A DNA stretch of 64,000 nt. It comes from Sedimentisphaerales bacterium (GTDB lineage Bacteria > Planctomycetota > Phycisphaerae > Sedimentisphaerales > SM23-30). Location of the stretch: the NCBI GenBank assembly GCA_028281535.1, contig JANQJS010000037.1, positions 1 through 64,000 on the forward strand, in the 5' to 3' direction. The notes beneath the pieces are model-generated. The model did not search any database. It was not told where the DNA came from and worked only from the letters and a program-made list of their open reading frames with translations. Every line of letters starts with the position of its first letter. Positions within the stretch are counted from its first letter, which is position 1. Shown piece by piece: positions 16,477 through 22,686 of this stretch. The position numbers were made by a program, and so were the translations under genes.

Positions 16477-16887
16477 ATGGAACATATTTGGCTACCTATA
16501 GTGATTATAAGTATTGTAATTATTTATGTAATCGTCTTCAAATATATGAGTCATCTCCAACAGAAGTTATATGACAACGTTTTTAATCCAAATGCTAAAC
16601 TTCAATCCAAAGCAATGGTTCGCATCGGAATCATCAGTGCACCCGGTGTTGTACAAATTGTCGATGATCAGATAAAAGTTTACATGTTAAGTCTATTTGG
16701 TGATCCTGAGACACTCCAATACCCTCTCAATGATATAAAAGTTATTAAATCATTTGTTTCAATTAGCAAGGCTGAATGGATTGGAAAAACCTGTTTTAGA
16801 ATCCAAACACCTAATAAAGAAACATTTGGCTTTGGTGTTTCCAAACCTGCAGCATGGAAAAAAGAACTCTGTGGTATAGGTTATTAA
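16477..16887 (+). CDS. Hypothetical membrane-anchored protein
   Basis: A 136-residue product with one N-terminal membrane segment (LPIVIISIVIIYVIVF, residues 6-21) and a soluble domain of beta character: AMVRIGIISAPGVVQIVDDQIKV, YPLNDIKVIKSF and TCFRIQTPNKETFGFGV. This layout resembles bacterial PH-like/GRAM-like domains, but that is a weak impression. It is 13 bases downstream of lepB with a GGA-rich ribosome site. Its TAA overlaps by four bases the TAA of the convergent AIM24 gene, with no terminator between them. Confidence 0.7.
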   Translation: MEHIWLPIVIISIVIIYVIVFKYMSHLQQKLYDNVFNPNAKLQSKAMVRIGIISAPGVVQIVDDQIKVYMLSLFGDPETLQYPLNDIKVIKSFVSISKAEWIGKTCFRIQTPNKETFGFGVSKPAAWKKELCGIGY

Positions 16888-17570
16888 CCACCTTTCGATT
16901 CTACTGGTCTGAATGGATAGACCCAGGAGGTAAAGGCCGGAGCTTTTCGTGTTTGAATCCAGGCTTTACCTTGACCTCGAAATCTTGCCACTAAACCTTC
17001 ACCTGAGAAAAATAGGGATTTGTAGCCACCCACTGATGAAACATTGTAATCCAAACCTTCAGTAAAAGCGACGATGTGGCCGGTATCAATGACATATTCA
17101 TCTTCGATATCGACTTCCATGATACCGCCATAACTATTGAACCAAAGATCACCCGTGCCAGAACATTTAATTAAAAACATGCTTTCACCGGAGAAAAAGC
17201 CTTTCATCAATCCTTGCCACTTCGTTTCAACATTTATATCCATACTTGAAGCGACAAAGGCTGAGCCTTGCAAGAAGATGGTTTCATTTTCTAAATAAAC
17301 ATGATCCATATCACCGGCTGCAGATGGCGCGATACCGATTTCTCCGGCGGCACCTTCTGGGGTAAATTCATTAATAAACAGTGATTCGCCAGTCAAAAAG
17401 CGTTTGAATCCGCCACGGAATTTGGTTTTCATATTTATATGGGTATCCATGGTTGCCATTGCGGAGGCTTCTACTTTTAGCGTTTGACCACTGGGAATCG
17501 TCACAGTGAGAAATCCAAAGTCGGGTTGATGATCAAAATGAAATTGAAAATCTGATTTATCTTTATCCAT
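16884..17570 (-). CDS. AIM24/TIGR00266 family protein, paralogue 3
   Basis: A 228-residue member of the AIM24 (TIGR00266) fold, a pseudo-symmetric beta barrel named from a mitochondrial inner-membrane biogenesis protein; bacterial function is unknown. Visible repeats: SGQTLKVEASAMATMDTHI, GGFKRFLTGESLFINEF, FFSGESMFLIKCSGTGDLWF, then DIEDEYVIDTGHIVAFTEGL and LFFSGEGLVARFRGQGKAWIQTR. It is the last gene of the M48/AIM24 operon and lies 30 bases after paralogue 2. The three paralogues share layout but are clearly diverged. Confidence 0.9.
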   Translation of the reverse strand: MDKDKSDFQFHFDHQPDFGFLTVTIPSGQTLKVEASAMATMDTHINMKTKFRGGFKRFLTGESLFINEFTPEGAAGEIGIAPSAAGDMDHVYLENETIFLQGSAFVASSMDINVETKWQGLMKGFFSGESMFLIKCSGTGDLWFNSYGGIMEVDIEDEYVIDTGHIVAFTEGLDYNVSSVGGYKSLFFSGEGLVARFRGQGKAWIQTRKAPAFTSWVYPFRPVESKGG

Positions 17571-17600
17571 TATATTATCCTTTTATGGTTAGTATCTTTT

Positions 17601-18278
17601 TTAGCGAGGTTTTAGCATCGGTCCTAACGCTTTGCCAAAAGAGCTTGGGTTATGTGATTGACACCAAACGGTCCCTTTGCCTTCAAATTTGCAAACGAGT
17701 CCTTCTCCTCCCAGAATGGATGACATCCAGCTCTGTCCGGCTTTGGTTAAGGTAAAACCTAACGTTTCATTAAACGCGACGATATGTCCTGTATCAACGA
17801 TGTATTCACCATCAACTTCAACCGGATAAATAGCACCAAAGGAATTAAAGATCACATGACCGCTGCCGCTTAAATTGACCCAAAACATGCCTTCACCAGA
17901 GAGTAGAGTTTTGAACCCTTGCCAGCCTAGATCAATATCGATCTCTGGACTACAAGCGACAAAGCTACCGCCCTGAACAATTAAACGTTCATTCTCCATT
18001 TGATAGTCCTGCATGTCACCAGCGAGCGTTGTACCCAAAACAACATGTCCGCCCTGAGAAGAAGCCGTGTAATGGTTGAGGAAAAAATTCTCGCCTGAAA
18101 GCATGCGTTTCATCGCTTTCATGATGCCGCCTTTGCCTTTTTTATGTGTCGTGGTTTCAATGTGCATGTCACCACTCATCGAGATCATTGAGCCACCTTC
18201 TGCCGTAAGATGCTCATTGGGTTCCAAAGTTACATTGGCAACGGAATTGCCTGGTCTATATTGAATATCAATGTCCAT
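17601..18278 (-). CDS. AIM24/TIGR00266 family protein, paralogue 2
   Basis: A 225-residue AIM24-fold protein: LEPNEHLTAEGGSMISMSGD at the start, GGIMKAMKRMLSGENFFLNHY, GWQGFKTLLSGEGMFWVNLSGSG and VDGEYIVDTGHIVAFNETL, SILGGEGLVCKFEGKGTVW. The Gly-Glu-rich SGE motifs recur three times as in its neighbours. No signal peptide or membrane span, so probably cytosolic or peripheral. Eleven bases separate it from paralogue 1, with a GGAG-like site before the ATG, indicating one transcript. Confidence 0.9.
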   Translation of the reverse strand: MDIDIQYRPGNSVANVTLEPNEHLTAEGGSMISMSGDMHIETTTHKKGKGGIMKAMKRMLSGENFFLNHYTASSQGGHVVLGTTLAGDMQDYQMENERLIVQGGSFVACSPEIDIDLGWQGFKTLLSGEGMFWVNLSGSGHVIFNSFGAIYPVEVDGEYIVDTGHIVAFNETLGFTLTKAGQSWMSSILGGEGLVCKFEGKGTVWCQSHNPSSFGKALGPMLKPR

Positions 18279-18289
18279 TGTCGTCTCCT

Positions 18290-18952
18290 TTAGAATAAAT
18301 GGCGATTGGTCCAGGATGCCAGCGATTCCATACTTCGCGTTTGGATCACGATTTTTCCAGACCCTTCCATGCGTGTCACTAAACCTTCGCCGCTAAAAAA
18401 ACTGGAAAAAATACCACCGGCCAATTGCACCTTCATATTGAGTTGCGGTTCATAAGCAACTAAGTGACTGGTATCGATAATGTATTCTCCTTCGATCTGT
18501 TTTTCGATGAGTCCACCATAAGCACCATACCAGACTTTACCAGTACCACTGACTTCCAATTTGAAAAGTCCTTCTCGCCCAATCCATGATCGAATACCAG
18601 CCCACTTAAGCCCAAGCTTAACACCGGGTGTTGAGCAGACATAAGCCCCTGGTTGAAGACATAAACTGGAATTTTCCAATTCGAGGCAATGCATATCACC
18701 TGGGGTATTTTGGGTTAAGGTCAGTCTTTTCGTATCACCGGTATTATTGGTAAACTCATTAATAAATAAGCTTTCACCGCCTAAAAATCGCTTACATAAA
18801 CCAGAGAAAAATCCTCCATTTAATTTCGCTTTGACATCCAAATCCGCTGCCATGGATGACATGGCATCTGATTCAGCCACGATGGTCTCGCCCGGCTCCA
18901 AATCGACCTGGAGAAAGGCAAATACCGGCTTGGCAACTATTTCTGCATTCAT
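18290..18952 (-). CDS. AIM24/TIGR00266 family protein, paralogue 1
   Basis: A 220-residue AIM24-fold protein. It shows LEPGETIVAESDAMSSMAADL, LCKRFLGGESLFINEFTN, WIGREGLFKLEVSGTGKVWYG, IEGEYIIDTSHLVAYEPQL and FFSGEGLVTRMEGSGKIVIQTR. The start ATG overlaps the TGA of the M48 protease gene (18949-18952), so it is probably translationally coupled to the protease. This coupling is the best clue that AIM24 and the protease act together. Confidence 0.9.
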   Translation of the reverse strand: MNAEIVAKPVFAFLQVDLEPGETIVAESDAMSSMAADLDVKAKLNGGFFSGLCKRFLGGESLFINEFTNNTGDTKRLTLTQNTPGDMHCLELENSSLCLQPGAYVCSTPGVKLGLKWAGIRSWIGREGLFKLEVSGTGKVWYGAYGGLIEKQIEGEYIIDTSHLVAYEPQLNMKVQLAGGIFSSFFSGEGLVTRMEGSGKIVIQTRSMESLASWTNRHLF

Positions 18953-20088
18953 TTTTGCTCCTTTGTTTGCGGAAGTGCGTTGAGTGCTGATTGCAATTCC
19001 ATTTGAAATTTTGGTAAATCCAGATCAAGTTTGATAAACTGGTTTTGTTTGCGGAAGTTTGCTATCTTTTTCTGTAAAACCTCGATACGATCATCTGTGG
19101 CTGGATGGGTACTGAGAAAATCCATTTCGCCATGGGTATCACCATATTCTTTTTCCAGTAATTTAAAAAAATCAATCAACCCCTGTGGATTAATATTGGC
19201 TTCATTTAAATAATATAATCCCTGATCATCTGCTTCGCGTTCAAATGCACGGCTGTTTTGTAGAAAAACAAGTACGCCTGCCCCTTCGATAATGGTGGCC
19301 AAAGACGACCCACCATCCGTTAAGACACTGATAGCGACTAACAATCCTGCTTTCTTTAATAAACTTCTGAGATGATGGCGGCAGGTAACATGAGCGATTT
19401 CATGTCCCAATACACCAGCGATTTGATCGGGATGGCTGGCTTTTAATAATAAACCCGAATGAATCACAATCTGTCCACCCGGTAATGCAAATGCATTTAT
19501 TGACTCATCTTTAATGATATAAAAATCAAAGGTATATTCCGGGCTCTCTCGTTTGACAACATCAAGTAGTGGTTGTGTGATGTTTATAATTTGTGATAAT
19601 AATGGCTCGTCATTAATGATGACTTTATCCTGAGTGAGGGATTCAAATAAATAGTCACCTATTTTTTGTTCATATTCAAAAGGAACCGATTGGGCAGCTT
19701 TGTTAATGATCATGTCATAACAAACTACGGTAAGACCAATCCCCAAAACAAGCAATACCAAGATCGATAAAATGACACTTCGCCAAGCCCATTTCTTTTT
19801 CTTGATCTGTATAAGCTGCTGACTAAAAGCTGGAAATTGCTTAAGGGTTGGATTAGACAACACTGATTTATCGGAAAAACAGAAAGTGACATCTGGACAA
19901 TCTGGGTGAGTGATAAAGACCAATCGATCACTGGCACCACTCAACTTCATTTGAGTTTGGTCGTCTATTGGCATATAAAGGGTATGCTCATCAACGTAAA
20001 ACGTAATTGAACCAAATTCTATAGAAAAATGACCGCTTTTTTTTCCACGTTCAAATTCGTCACTAAATACAAAACCTTTATATTGCAT
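18949..20088 (-). CDS. Membrane-anchored M48 family metalloprotease
   Basis: A 379-residue protein in three parts. Residues 1-98 form a soluble beta-rich domain of unknown type (FSIEFGSITFYVDEHTLYMP). Residues 101-123 form one membrane span. The rest is an M48 peptidase with PGGQIVIHSGLLLKA, zinc motif HEIAH (residues 229-233), FEREADDQGLYYL carrying the third zinc ligand Glu, and STHPATDDRIEVLQ. Related proteases (HtpX, BepA, LoiP) act in envelope protein quality control. The N-terminal domain is unusual for the family. A promoter lies at 20149-20176. Confidence 0.9.
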   Translation of the reverse strand: MQYKGFVFSDEFERGKKSGHFSIEFGSITFYVDEHTLYMPIDDQTQMKLSGASDRLVFITHPDCPDVTFCFSDKSVLSNPTLKQFPAFSQQLIQIKKKKWAWRSVILSILVLLVLGIGLTVVCYDMIINKAAQSVPFEYEQKIGDYLFESLTQDKVIINDEPLLSQIINITQPLLDVVKRESPEYTFDFYIIKDESINAFALPGGQIVIHSGLLLKASHPDQIAGVLGHEIAHVTCRHHLRSLLKKAGLLVAISVLTDGGSSLATIIEGAGVLVFLQNSRAFEREADDQGLYYLNEANINPQGLIDFFKLLEKEYGDTHGEMDFLSTHPATDDRIEVLQKKIANFRKQNQFIKLDLDLPKFQMELQSALNALPQTKEQK

Positions 20089-20338: not shown

Positions 20339-20644
20339 CTAATTAAATTTATCTTCCCTAAGTACTTTTACATTCTCCAGATAAACGACAACTGCATAAT
20401 CTTCAAAATAACTGCTTTGAAGATCCTCACAAAATTTATTTGCCGTCATCTCTTCACATAATATTTCAAGCTTTACATTTTTGCTATACTCGAAATCGCC
20501 ATCACGTAAACCGCGTGCCCCCTCACCTCGGGCATCCATCGTGGTATATCCATGAATACCATGTTTTTTAGCCAGTTCAACGATTTTCTCTTCTAAAAAT
20601 GCTTCACAAATCACCGTCACAAGTTTTCGGTCATAATAATTCAT
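20339..20644 (-). CDS. sbtB: P-II-like protein paired with SbtA (SbtB-type)
   Basis: A 101-residue protein with the ferredoxin-like P-II fold: KLVTVICEAFLEEKIVELAKKHG, GYTTMDARGEGARGLRDGDF (T-loop region) and VKLEILCEEMTANKFCEDLQ, ending VVYLENVKVLRE. In cyanobacteria SbtB binds adenine nucleotides and regulates SbtA. No C-terminal CGPxGC redox loop is present. The ATG follows the sbtA stop by one base, with AGGAG inside sbtA, so the two are coupled. Confidence 0.85.
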   Translation of the reverse strand: MNYYDRKLVTVICEAFLEEKIVELAKKHGIHGYTTMDARGEGARGLRDGDFEYSKNVKLEILCEEMTANKFCEDLQSSYFEDYAVVVYLENVKVLREDKFN

Positions 20645-20645
20645 A

Positions 20646-21605
20646 TTACGCTCCTATCATAGGCTGAAGCCACAAAGCCATCTTATGGTAGATGGGAATT
20701 CCTATAACAACATTAAATGGAAACGTTATCCCTAACGAAGCCGTTAAATAAATGGCCGGATTTGCCTTTGGTATACCCACTCGAACCGCTGCTGGTGCAG
20801 CAATATATGAGGCACTAGCAGATAATGTTGCTAAAACGATTATGCTACCCAATTTTAAACCACATAAAGTACCGAGAACCGTACCAATGGCTCCAGATAG
20901 CAACGGCACAGCAATCGAAAAACCGATCAACGATAAACCAAATCGTTTAATTGAACCAATACGCTTGGATACCACCAAACCCATTTCCAAAAGAAAGAAT
21001 GCCAAAGCACCTTTAAATGGGTCAACAAAGACAGGGTCCAATGGTTGCATTTTTTCAAGCCCTACGATATAACCAATTATCAAACCACCAACCAATAAGA
21101 AAATACTTTTACCAAAGATCACTTCATGCATCACGGCTTTTAATTCGGTATTAAATTGCTTGGATCCCATTTTGGCAAACATCACACCAATCGCGAGTGC
21201 CGGGATTTCTAGAATGACGATCATGACGGTCACATAGGGATCGTAATTAACGTTAAGCCGTACAAGATAATCGATACAAACAGCAAATGTCACCGCACTA
21301 ACCGAGCCATAATGTGTGGCCAATGCCGCGGCATTATTTCGCGAATATCGAAATAATTTAAACGCTATAAAAAAAGCTAATATAGGAATTATCACGCCTA
21401 CCAAGCCGGTGGCTAGAAGCGGCAATACTAATTCACCCATATCAACTTTTGATAGCTCTTTACCCCCTTTCAAACCGATGGCAAGTAGAAGATAAATACT
21501 CAAACTCTCATAGAGCGTTTCAGGTATTTTTAAATCGGATTTCAGCAGACCCGCTGCTAAACCTAAAATAAAGAAAAATACAATAGGGTTCAGTAAAGCA
21601 TCCAT
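20646..21605 (-). CDS. sbtA: Sodium-dependent bicarbonate transporter SbtA family
   Basis: A 319-residue polytopic membrane protein of about ten segments in two inverted halves. It shows LGLAAGLLKSDLKIPETLYE, LLAIGLKGGKEL, THYGSVSAVTFAVC (substrate/Na site in SbtA) and in the second half TLSASASYIAAPAAVRVGIP and SLGITFPFNVVIGIPIY. In cyanobacteria the family imports bicarbonate for carbon concentration; in heterotrophs it may feed carboxylases or pH control. No carboxysome or RuBisCO genes are in the window. It is coupled to sbtB. Confidence 0.9.
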   Translation of the reverse strand: MDALLNPIVFFFILGLAAGLLKSDLKIPETLYESLSIYLLLAIGLKGGKELSKVDMGELVLPLLATGLVGVIIPILAFFIAFKLFRYSRNNAAALATHYGSVSAVTFAVCIDYLVRLNVNYDPYVTVMIVILEIPALAIGVMFAKMGSKQFNTELKAVMHEVIFGKSIFLLVGGLIIGYIVGLEKMQPLDPVFVDPFKGALAFFLLEMGLVVSKRIGSIKRFGLSLIGFSIAVPLLSGAIGTVLGTLCGLKLGSIIVLATLSASASYIAAPAAVRVGIPKANPAIYLTASLGITFPFNVVIGIPIYHKMALWLQPMIGA

Positions 21606-21653: not shown

Positions 21654-22490
21654 TTAACCGCTACAATCTATAAATGAAAAGCGGTTATTTTCATACTTTA
21701 TTTTACAAGCTTCTACATCAGGATCGTGTTGCATAATAATCGTCCAATCCTCTTCTATGGCTTTTGGAAATAACGTCTCTTTTTCTGCGAGTGTTGTTAA
21801 TGGATAGAGGTCAACTGACATAATACAGGGTAAATGTATATGTTGCACTCTGGGCACTAAATCCGCAGCGTAAAAATATGTCGAAGAACCATTCTTAATA
21901 AGAGGACATTGCATGGCAGGTGTATGTCCATGAAAACACAATACGCTCATATTGTCAGAAATTTGTTGATCACCCTCAATTAATTCCAGCTGATCCATCT
22001 GTTTAACAGCATCAATTTGCCGCGGATGATAGCCTGCCTTGTCACGAATCGTAGGATTTTGGGCCCAAGCCCATTGCTCATTTTGTAACCAGACTTTCGC
22101 ATTTGGAAAAGTCGGGGCAAAGGTATCATTCTTTTTGACAATGATCCCTCCGACATGGTCATAGTGCATATGAGTTAAAAGCACATCAGTGATCTGTTCT
22201 GGCGACGTGTTAAACGGAGCTAATGCTTGCGCATAATCAAAATTCGTCCTATCGGGTCGATGAAATTTTAAGAACTTTGGATCATCTGCATAATAATTAC
22301 CAATCCCCGTATCAACGATAATTTTACGGTCACCATCCTCGACATATAAATTTCGCAATGCCATGGTAATTTTATTATCTGCAGAAGGCTCAACCCATTT
22401 TTGCCACATGACTTTAGGTATGACCCCAAATGCAACGCCAGCATCAGAGCCAATAGTGCCAGAAAAGATTGTATGTATTTCAATAGACAT
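21654..22490 (-). CDS. MBL-fold metallo-hydrolase
   Basis: A 278-residue metallo-beta-lactamase-fold enzyme starting MSIEIHTIFSGTIGSDAG at 22490; 19 codons further upstream lack support. Metal motifs: LLTHMHYDHVGG (HxHxDH), a later His in CFHGHTPAMQ, the Asp in FYAADLV and the C-terminal His in MQHDPDV. Substrates range from lactones to thioesters and cannot be assigned. It precedes sbtA by 48 bases on the same strand, so the three genes may form an operon. Confidence 0.85.
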   Translation of the reverse strand: MSIEIHTIFSGTIGSDAGVAFGVIPKVMWQKWVEPSADNKITMALRNLYVEDGDRKIIVDTGIGNYYADDPKFLKFHRPDRTNFDYAQALAPFNTSPEQITDVLLTHMHYDHVGGIIVKKNDTFAPTFPNAKVWLQNEQWAWAQNPTIRDKAGYHPRQIDAVKQMDQLELIEGDQQISDNMSVLCFHGHTPAMQCPLIKNGSSTYFYAADLVPRVQHIHLPCIMSVDLYPLTTLAEKETLFPKAIEEDWTIIMQHDPDVEACKIKYENNRFSFIDCSG

Positions 22491-22686
22491 TCGGGTCTCA
22501 ATAATCCAATATTTTGAATGTAAACGAATATAACTTTTTGGCAACACTATACATCTGACAGGTTAAAATAGCAAGGTCAGGGTTATATTTTAATTTTCTG
22601 TTTCCTTTGTGATTTTTGAAGGCTATAATTATATAAAACCCTTCACAGGAATGACTAAGGAGAATATTTTCGGGAAAGAGGTATTT

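Follow-up and report, generated by a model that had tools for sequence, protein, structure and literature searches.

In yeast, Aim24 is a matrix-side protein, firmly bound to the inner membrane without a transmembrane (TM) segment; it forms part of a complex of ~400 kDa and affects both MICOS and cardiolipin (PMC3975624). OMA1, a mitochondrial protease of the M48 family, cuts its substrate just beyond its TM segment and releases the product to the intermembrane space (PMC13226697). In another M48 protease, BepA of E. coli, His-246 is an on/off switch of the protease (PMC8423444). Two AIM24 structures have been solved, 1YOX (PA3696) and 1PG6 (SpyM3_0169), and an AIM24 gene occurs in group I ter clusters, in an accessory cluster with terD-type genes (PMC5822837). 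Here we describe a locus in which the AIM24 and M48 families meet. It lies in a stretch of 64,000 nucleotides from a Sedimentisphaerales bacterium (contig JANQJS010000037.1; hereafter the window) and consists of a four-gene cassette on the minus strand, running from 20088 to 16884, that encodes an M48 protease followed by three AIM24/TIGR00266 paralogues. Because at least seven phyla retain these four genes side by side in an unchanged order, the products very probably act together as one machine.

The first gene (18949..20088; all cassette features are on the minus strand) encodes an M48 metalloprotease of 379 residues, in which a predicted PH-like domain and a single predicted TM helix precede the M48 domain. 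It scores 113 bits against PF01435 over residues 167-339 (cut-off 20.3). It is followed by AIM24-1 (220 residues, 18290..18952), AIM24-2 (225 residues, 17601..18278) and AIM24-3 (228 residues, 16884..17570), which match PF01987 over their whole length with 201, 218 and 208 bits, respectively (cut-off 25.7), and TIGR00266 with 208-216 bits (cut-off 96.6). These assignments and coordinates confirm an earlier note on this DNA, which had described an M48 protease and three diverged AIM24 copies in one row. The intergenic gaps are −4, 11 and 30 bp in the 5' to 3' direction, the first being an ATGA overlap between the stop of the protease and the start of AIM24-1 (18949..18952). This overlap is consistent with translational coupling of the two genes, as the note had supposed, and the same two genes overlap in 26 of 65 operons, with a median gap of 3 bp. 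A promoter and terminator scan of the cassette gave scores little above those of shuffled sequences, with no clear terminator 3' of AIM24-3. In the window genome (4.44 Mb, 99% complete), the cassette trio comprises the only AIM24 genes.

Scanning one genome per species, with a search seeded by an alignment of the three AIM24 types (A1, A2 and A3, after AIM24-1, -2 and -3) in which AIM24-1 stood first, we obtained 80 loci from other genomes, which were thereby selected for similarity to A1. The order M48-A1-A2-A3 was complete in 70 of them, so the neighbourhood is not confined to this strain. Their phylum labels are Planctomycetota, Verrucomicrobiota, Lentisphaerota, Bacteroidota, Pseudomonadota, Spirochaetota, Thermodesulfobacteriota, Sumerlaeota and Myxococcota; many carriers are metagenome-assembled genomes (MAGs) with possibly wrong labels, and we therefore set the count at at least seven phyla. 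The closest named relative is a locus from a Sedimentisphaerales MAG (Planctomycetota) with four genes in identical order, and cultured carriers include Hahella, Shewanella, Flavobacterium, Mucilaginibacter, Flammeovirga and Breznakibacter. No further neighbour recurs at the cassette loci, where repeated flanking families are those of close relatives or very common genes. Fusions between the four genes were not found in the loci searched either, the one flag being a single AIM24 split into two matches.

Of the remaining ten loci, three run into a contig end, and the other seven are trios with no protease gene next to them. Four of these seven genomes (L053, L066, L072 and L112) have a full gene for the PH-like and M48 domains (PH-M48) at another place, where no A1 gene follows it, and in L064 PH-M48 is found in a second cassette. 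Since PH-M48 is unlinked but present in four genomes, the link between protease and trio can outlive the operon, yet it is not absolute.

To avoid the bias toward A1-like loci, we sampled whole classes. Among 295 genomes of Bacteroidia, the N-terminal domain of the protease is present in ten, and an A2-type AIM24 is present in the same ten, scoring 377-405 bits as against 119 bits for the next best match outside the cassettes. All ten carry A1 directly 3' of the protease. If the two were independent, the chance of this coincidence would be about 1e-18, a value that is only a guide since the genomes are related. The protease N-terminal domain was found in one of 232 Gammaproteobacteria, namely the genome on which the sample was centred, and in one of 392 genomes of the window's class, namely the window genome itself. 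The cassette is patchily distributed, and none of the three sampled classes showed a PH-M48 gene without the trio. In each of the 16 cassette genomes checked there are three to five AIM24 genes, that is, the trio plus zero to two others.

Some AIM24 gene is present in 153 of 396 genomes of the window's class, while, among the matches listed, the window genome and one other, G406, are alone in having three full-length AIM24 genes in tandem. The tandem trio of G406 (L045:5955-8236, minus strand) is diverged from that of the cassette, and one member groups with A2. Two solitary AIM24 genes of this class (L040:1447-2118 and L008:1438-2118, both minus strand) encode proteins that branch beside the A2 clade, with no protease or siblings in the 3.6 kb of sequence covered.

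In a tree of 87 proteins, A1, A2 and A3 each form one group (support 100/100, 89/92 and 100/99, respectively), and solitary TIGR00266 proteins fall outside all three. Each clade spans the same range of phyla, which indicates that the triplication predates the spread of the cassette. Across phyla, identity to the window protein of the same type is about 58-81%. The earlier note had taken the three copies as a sign of a heteromeric assembly, a pseudo-symmetric ring or cap, and the four genes as a unit. The unit is supported by our survey, and the heteromer is favoured because three diverged copies are retained 1:1:1 across phyla. Such a pattern is the trace that a heteromer of fixed stoichiometry would be expected to leave.

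An AlphaFold2 model of the protease (mean pLDDT 91) shows seven strands (residues 2-71), a long helix (residues 86-122) and the M48 domain. The strands account for the extra N-terminal beta domain that the earlier note had recognised, for which a PH-like fold is predicted (residues 1-86, 19831..20088). PH and EVH1 chains fill its list of fold matches (VIA-align), the best being the PH domain of CERT (Z 7.8, 82 residues, 2.8 Å, 6% identity), and the number and order of strands fit PH. No Pfam family matches this domain in 65 orthologues. The long helix contains the single hydrophobic stretch, a predicted TM segment at residues 105-123 (19720..19776; hydropathy 3.0) with KKKKWAWR just before it. 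In 59 of 65 orthologues, lysine and arginine are more frequent before this segment than behind it, with means of 4.4 and 1.9 per 15 residues, and by the positive-inside rule we therefore predict that the PH-like domain is cytoplasmic and the M48 active site periplasmic.

The M48 peptidase domain (residues about 136-345, 19054..19683) resembles 3c37 (Z 24) and BepA (Z 22) in structure. Its zinc motif HExxH is HEIAH at H229-H233 (19390..19404), with the downstream ExxxD of M48 proteases provided by E283 and D287. The protease thus shows the marks of family membership, scoring above the Pfam cut-off as well, and falls below three family cut-offs: 129 bits against 570 for the BepA equivalog (NF052400), 57 against 365 for LoiP and at most 34 against 422 for HtpX in NCBIfam. 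In the alignment, H328 (19105..19107) lines up with His-246 of BepA. H229, E230, H233, E283, D287 and H328 are all invariant in 65 of 65 aligned proteases. Because both the catalytic residues and the equivalent of the BepA switch are invariant, the protease is probably active and held in check.

The AlphaFold2 model of AIM24-1 (pLDDT 84) matches the solved AIM24 structures 1PG6 and 1YOX, with Z 21.6 (205 residues, 2.9 Å) and 21.2 (188 residues, 2.3 Å), respectively. Within AIM24-1, internal repeats 2 and 3 align (hhalign 94%), while repeat 1 has only the motif in common with them. A kinship of Aim24 to the TRAP fold has been proposed (PMC3975624); no TRAP chain is among the fold matches of AIM24-1, the best match outside AIM24 being a cupin (Z 4.8), and this excludes nothing. 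By hydropathy, the A1, A2 and A3 types have no membrane-spanning or signal-like stretch. In each type, three loops preceding GE-type motifs have almost no acidic residues and are rich in F, L, I and W, most strongly before the third motif; in AIM24-1, loops 2 and 3 coincide with dips in model confidence. These hydrophobic loops are possible membrane contacts.

AIM24-3 carries extensions in other phyla that the window protein does without: an N-terminal GYF_2 domain in Verrucomicrobiota and, in Gammaproteobacteria, an extension of which one example is similar to the C-terminal domain of L7/L12 (21 bits, short of the Pfam threshold of 25.9). Because these are cytoplasmic domain types, they support a cytoplasmic site for the trio, and they suggest a docking role for AIM24-3.

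Starting from the observed gene order, co-occurrence, clades, catalytic site and His switch, together with the predicted topology, we tentatively propose a mechanism for the cassette in which the hetero-oligomer, its docking to the membrane, the contact between PH-like domain and AIM24, the direction of signalling and the substrates are what we infer. The three AIM24 subunits, at a gene dosage of 1:1:1, would assemble into a hetero-oligomer at the inner membrane, on its cytoplasmic side, with the hydrophobic loops before the GE-type motifs of each subunit as points of contact. This complex would contact the cytoplasmic PH-like domain of the protease. The trigger could be an altered state of the membrane or of a cytoplasmic partner; such a partner may in many lineages be bound via the extra domains of AIM24-3. 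The signal would then cross the single TM helix and release the conserved His switch in the periplasmic M48 domain, and the freed protease could then cut envelope or membrane proteins. Taken together, heteromer, PH-AIM24 contact and gating have in our estimate somewhat less than an even chance of being correct.

Several observations weigh against this mechanism. Two of the seven genomes with protease-less trios, both MAGs, show no full PH-M48, so the trio may act alone too, and the other AIM24 trio of the window's class, that of G406, lacks any nearby M48 homologue. The match to the PH fold is a modest one (Z at most 7.8, 6% identity) and says nothing on function, and the topology depends on the positive-inside rule as its sole basis. 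The hydrophobicity of the loops is clear for the third loops and ordinary for loop 1 of A2. Finally, mirror-tree correlations of 0.64-0.77 reflect joint inheritance, not contact, and they are too similar between pairs for ranking contacts.

The protease-less trios could also mean that the trio organises the membrane as a scaffold on its cytoplasmic side, in the way Aim24 does for MICOS and cardiolipin, and recruits rather than gates a housekeeping protease via the PH-like domain. The phenotype and location of yeast Aim24 (PMC3975624), the high conservation of the trio and the GYF_2 and L7/L12-like docking domains on AIM24-3 are all consistent with such a scaffold. However, the three classes sampled gave no case of PH-M48 on its own, and the invariance of the His switch suggests a regulated enzyme. 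We consider a pure scaffold possible but rather unlikely, and we favour gating over mere recruitment because the His switch is invariant.

The earlier note had gone on to suggest that the protease itself controls the AIM24 assembly, processing or degrading its subunits and thereby setting their stability or membrane attachment. The tight linkage, the frequent translational coupling between the protease and AIM24-1 and the strict co-occurrence of the protease domain with A2 would all fit such a role. M48 proteases with cytoplasmic active sites do exist, HtpX and Ste24 being examples. In the predicted topology of the cassette protease, however, the membrane separates the active site from the AIM24 proteins, and since the predicted compartments differ, trimming of AIM24 by the protease seems hardly possible. 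In these compartments the PH-like domain would be the portion of the protease turned towards the trio, and recruitment or gating of the protease across the membrane by an AIM24 complex would be the simplest scheme. In addition, the AIM24 types are conserved far more than the protease (mean pairwise identities of 62-66%, compared to 43% in its M48 and 34% in its PH domain), no recurrent cleavage-site tail is apparent, and some trios have no adjacent protease. Control by cutting is therefore quite doubtful, and it seems more likely that control runs from the trio to the protease, as is suggested by both the His switch and the PH-like domain. From these sequence-based predictions, we judge direct turnover of AIM24 by the protease less likely than gating of the protease, via its PH domain, by a docked AIM24 hetero-oligomer. 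Another reading, in which AIM24 is the sensing and the protease the executing part of a mobile accessory system against envelope stress or for defence, is more improbable still: the patchy presence of the cassette (10/295, 1/232 and 1/392), its occurrence on large plasmids in two Cytophagales and the AIM24 genes of ter stress clusters (PMC5822837) would be in line with this, but none of the four proteins has a PADLOC match at E 0.01, no defence island or mobile genes adjoin the cassette, the genes flanking it in the window are housekeeping genes, and it is nearly absent from phages.

Several side observations concern the surroundings of the cassette and the wider AIM24 family. A 136-residue open reading frame on the plus strand (16477-16887) is convergent with AIM24-3, the ends of the two overlapping by 4 bp; its product has a TM stretch at the N-terminus and a tail rich in beta structure, which on visual inspection looks PH-like, and it has no Pfam, NCBIfam or PHROGs match. 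At 20339-21605 (minus strand), a P-II-like gene adjoins a gene for an SbtA-type sodium-bicarbonate transporter, comparable to cyanobacterial sbtA/sbtB pairs, and at 21654-22547 (minus strand) lies a gene for a protein of the metallo-beta-lactamase fold whose best model is the quorum-quenching lactonase YtnP (153 bits against a cut-off of 425). The sole phage record with an AIM24-like stretch is Pseudomonas phage Y1 (OQ572403.1, 62667-63302, unannotated); at 33% identity, this lone record led us to reject a phage origin of the cassette. In Shewanella oneidensis, SO_1966 (DUF124, that is, AIM24) is tabulated among genes linked to SsoR, an iron regulator (PMC12442407).

We found no literature report that joins AIM24 with M48, in a search that left subscription papers mostly outside its coverage, so that earlier notice is possible; annotated plasmids label the cassette as 'M48 family metallopeptidase' and three 'TIGR00266 family protein' without comment. 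The families are known; what seems new is how they are combined, along with the PH-like domain and the rule of three clades. With the cassette, a family that extends from bacteria and archaea to mitochondria gains an enzyme partner with a testable activity. The cassette also defines the set of three paralogues and yields a predicted compartment for every part, and its cultured carriers make it an accessible bacterial system for AIM24 function.

Compared to solitary TIGR00266 proteins such as PA3696 (1YOX) and SpyM3_0169 (1PG6), the cassette proteins share the fold (Z 21) and the Pfam family, but most genomes with the solitary type carry one AIM24 gene and no PH-M48. The ter clusters likewise place an AIM24 protein inside an accessory gene cluster; there, however, a single AIM24 stands beside terD-type genes, whereas the cassette has three AIM24 and a protease and no ter genes. 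BepA resembles the cassette protease in its M48 domain (Z 22), its zinc site and the position of His-246, which corresponds to H328, yet BepA is periplasmic, has a TPR domain and acts at the BAM complex, while the cassette protease has a PH-like domain and a TM anchor. One could go further and propose a system of transmembrane proteolytic signalling in which three AIM24 subunits, as a membrane-docked cytoplasmic heterotrimer or a multiple thereof, would sense the state of the inner membrane and, by way of the PH-like domain and the TM helix, gate a periplasmic M48 domain that the His switch keeps inactive, as a bacterial counterpart, and perhaps the ancestral form, of the mitochondrial Aim24/OMA1 arrangement. 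We regard this broader proposal as unlikely; the papers that we found, judged by title and abstract, report no functional or physical link between Aim24 and OMA1. The likeness is one of arrangement only, with an AIM24 protein on the inner side and an M48 protease acting on the outer side of the inner membrane, and the yeast work describes one Aim24 where the cassette has three.

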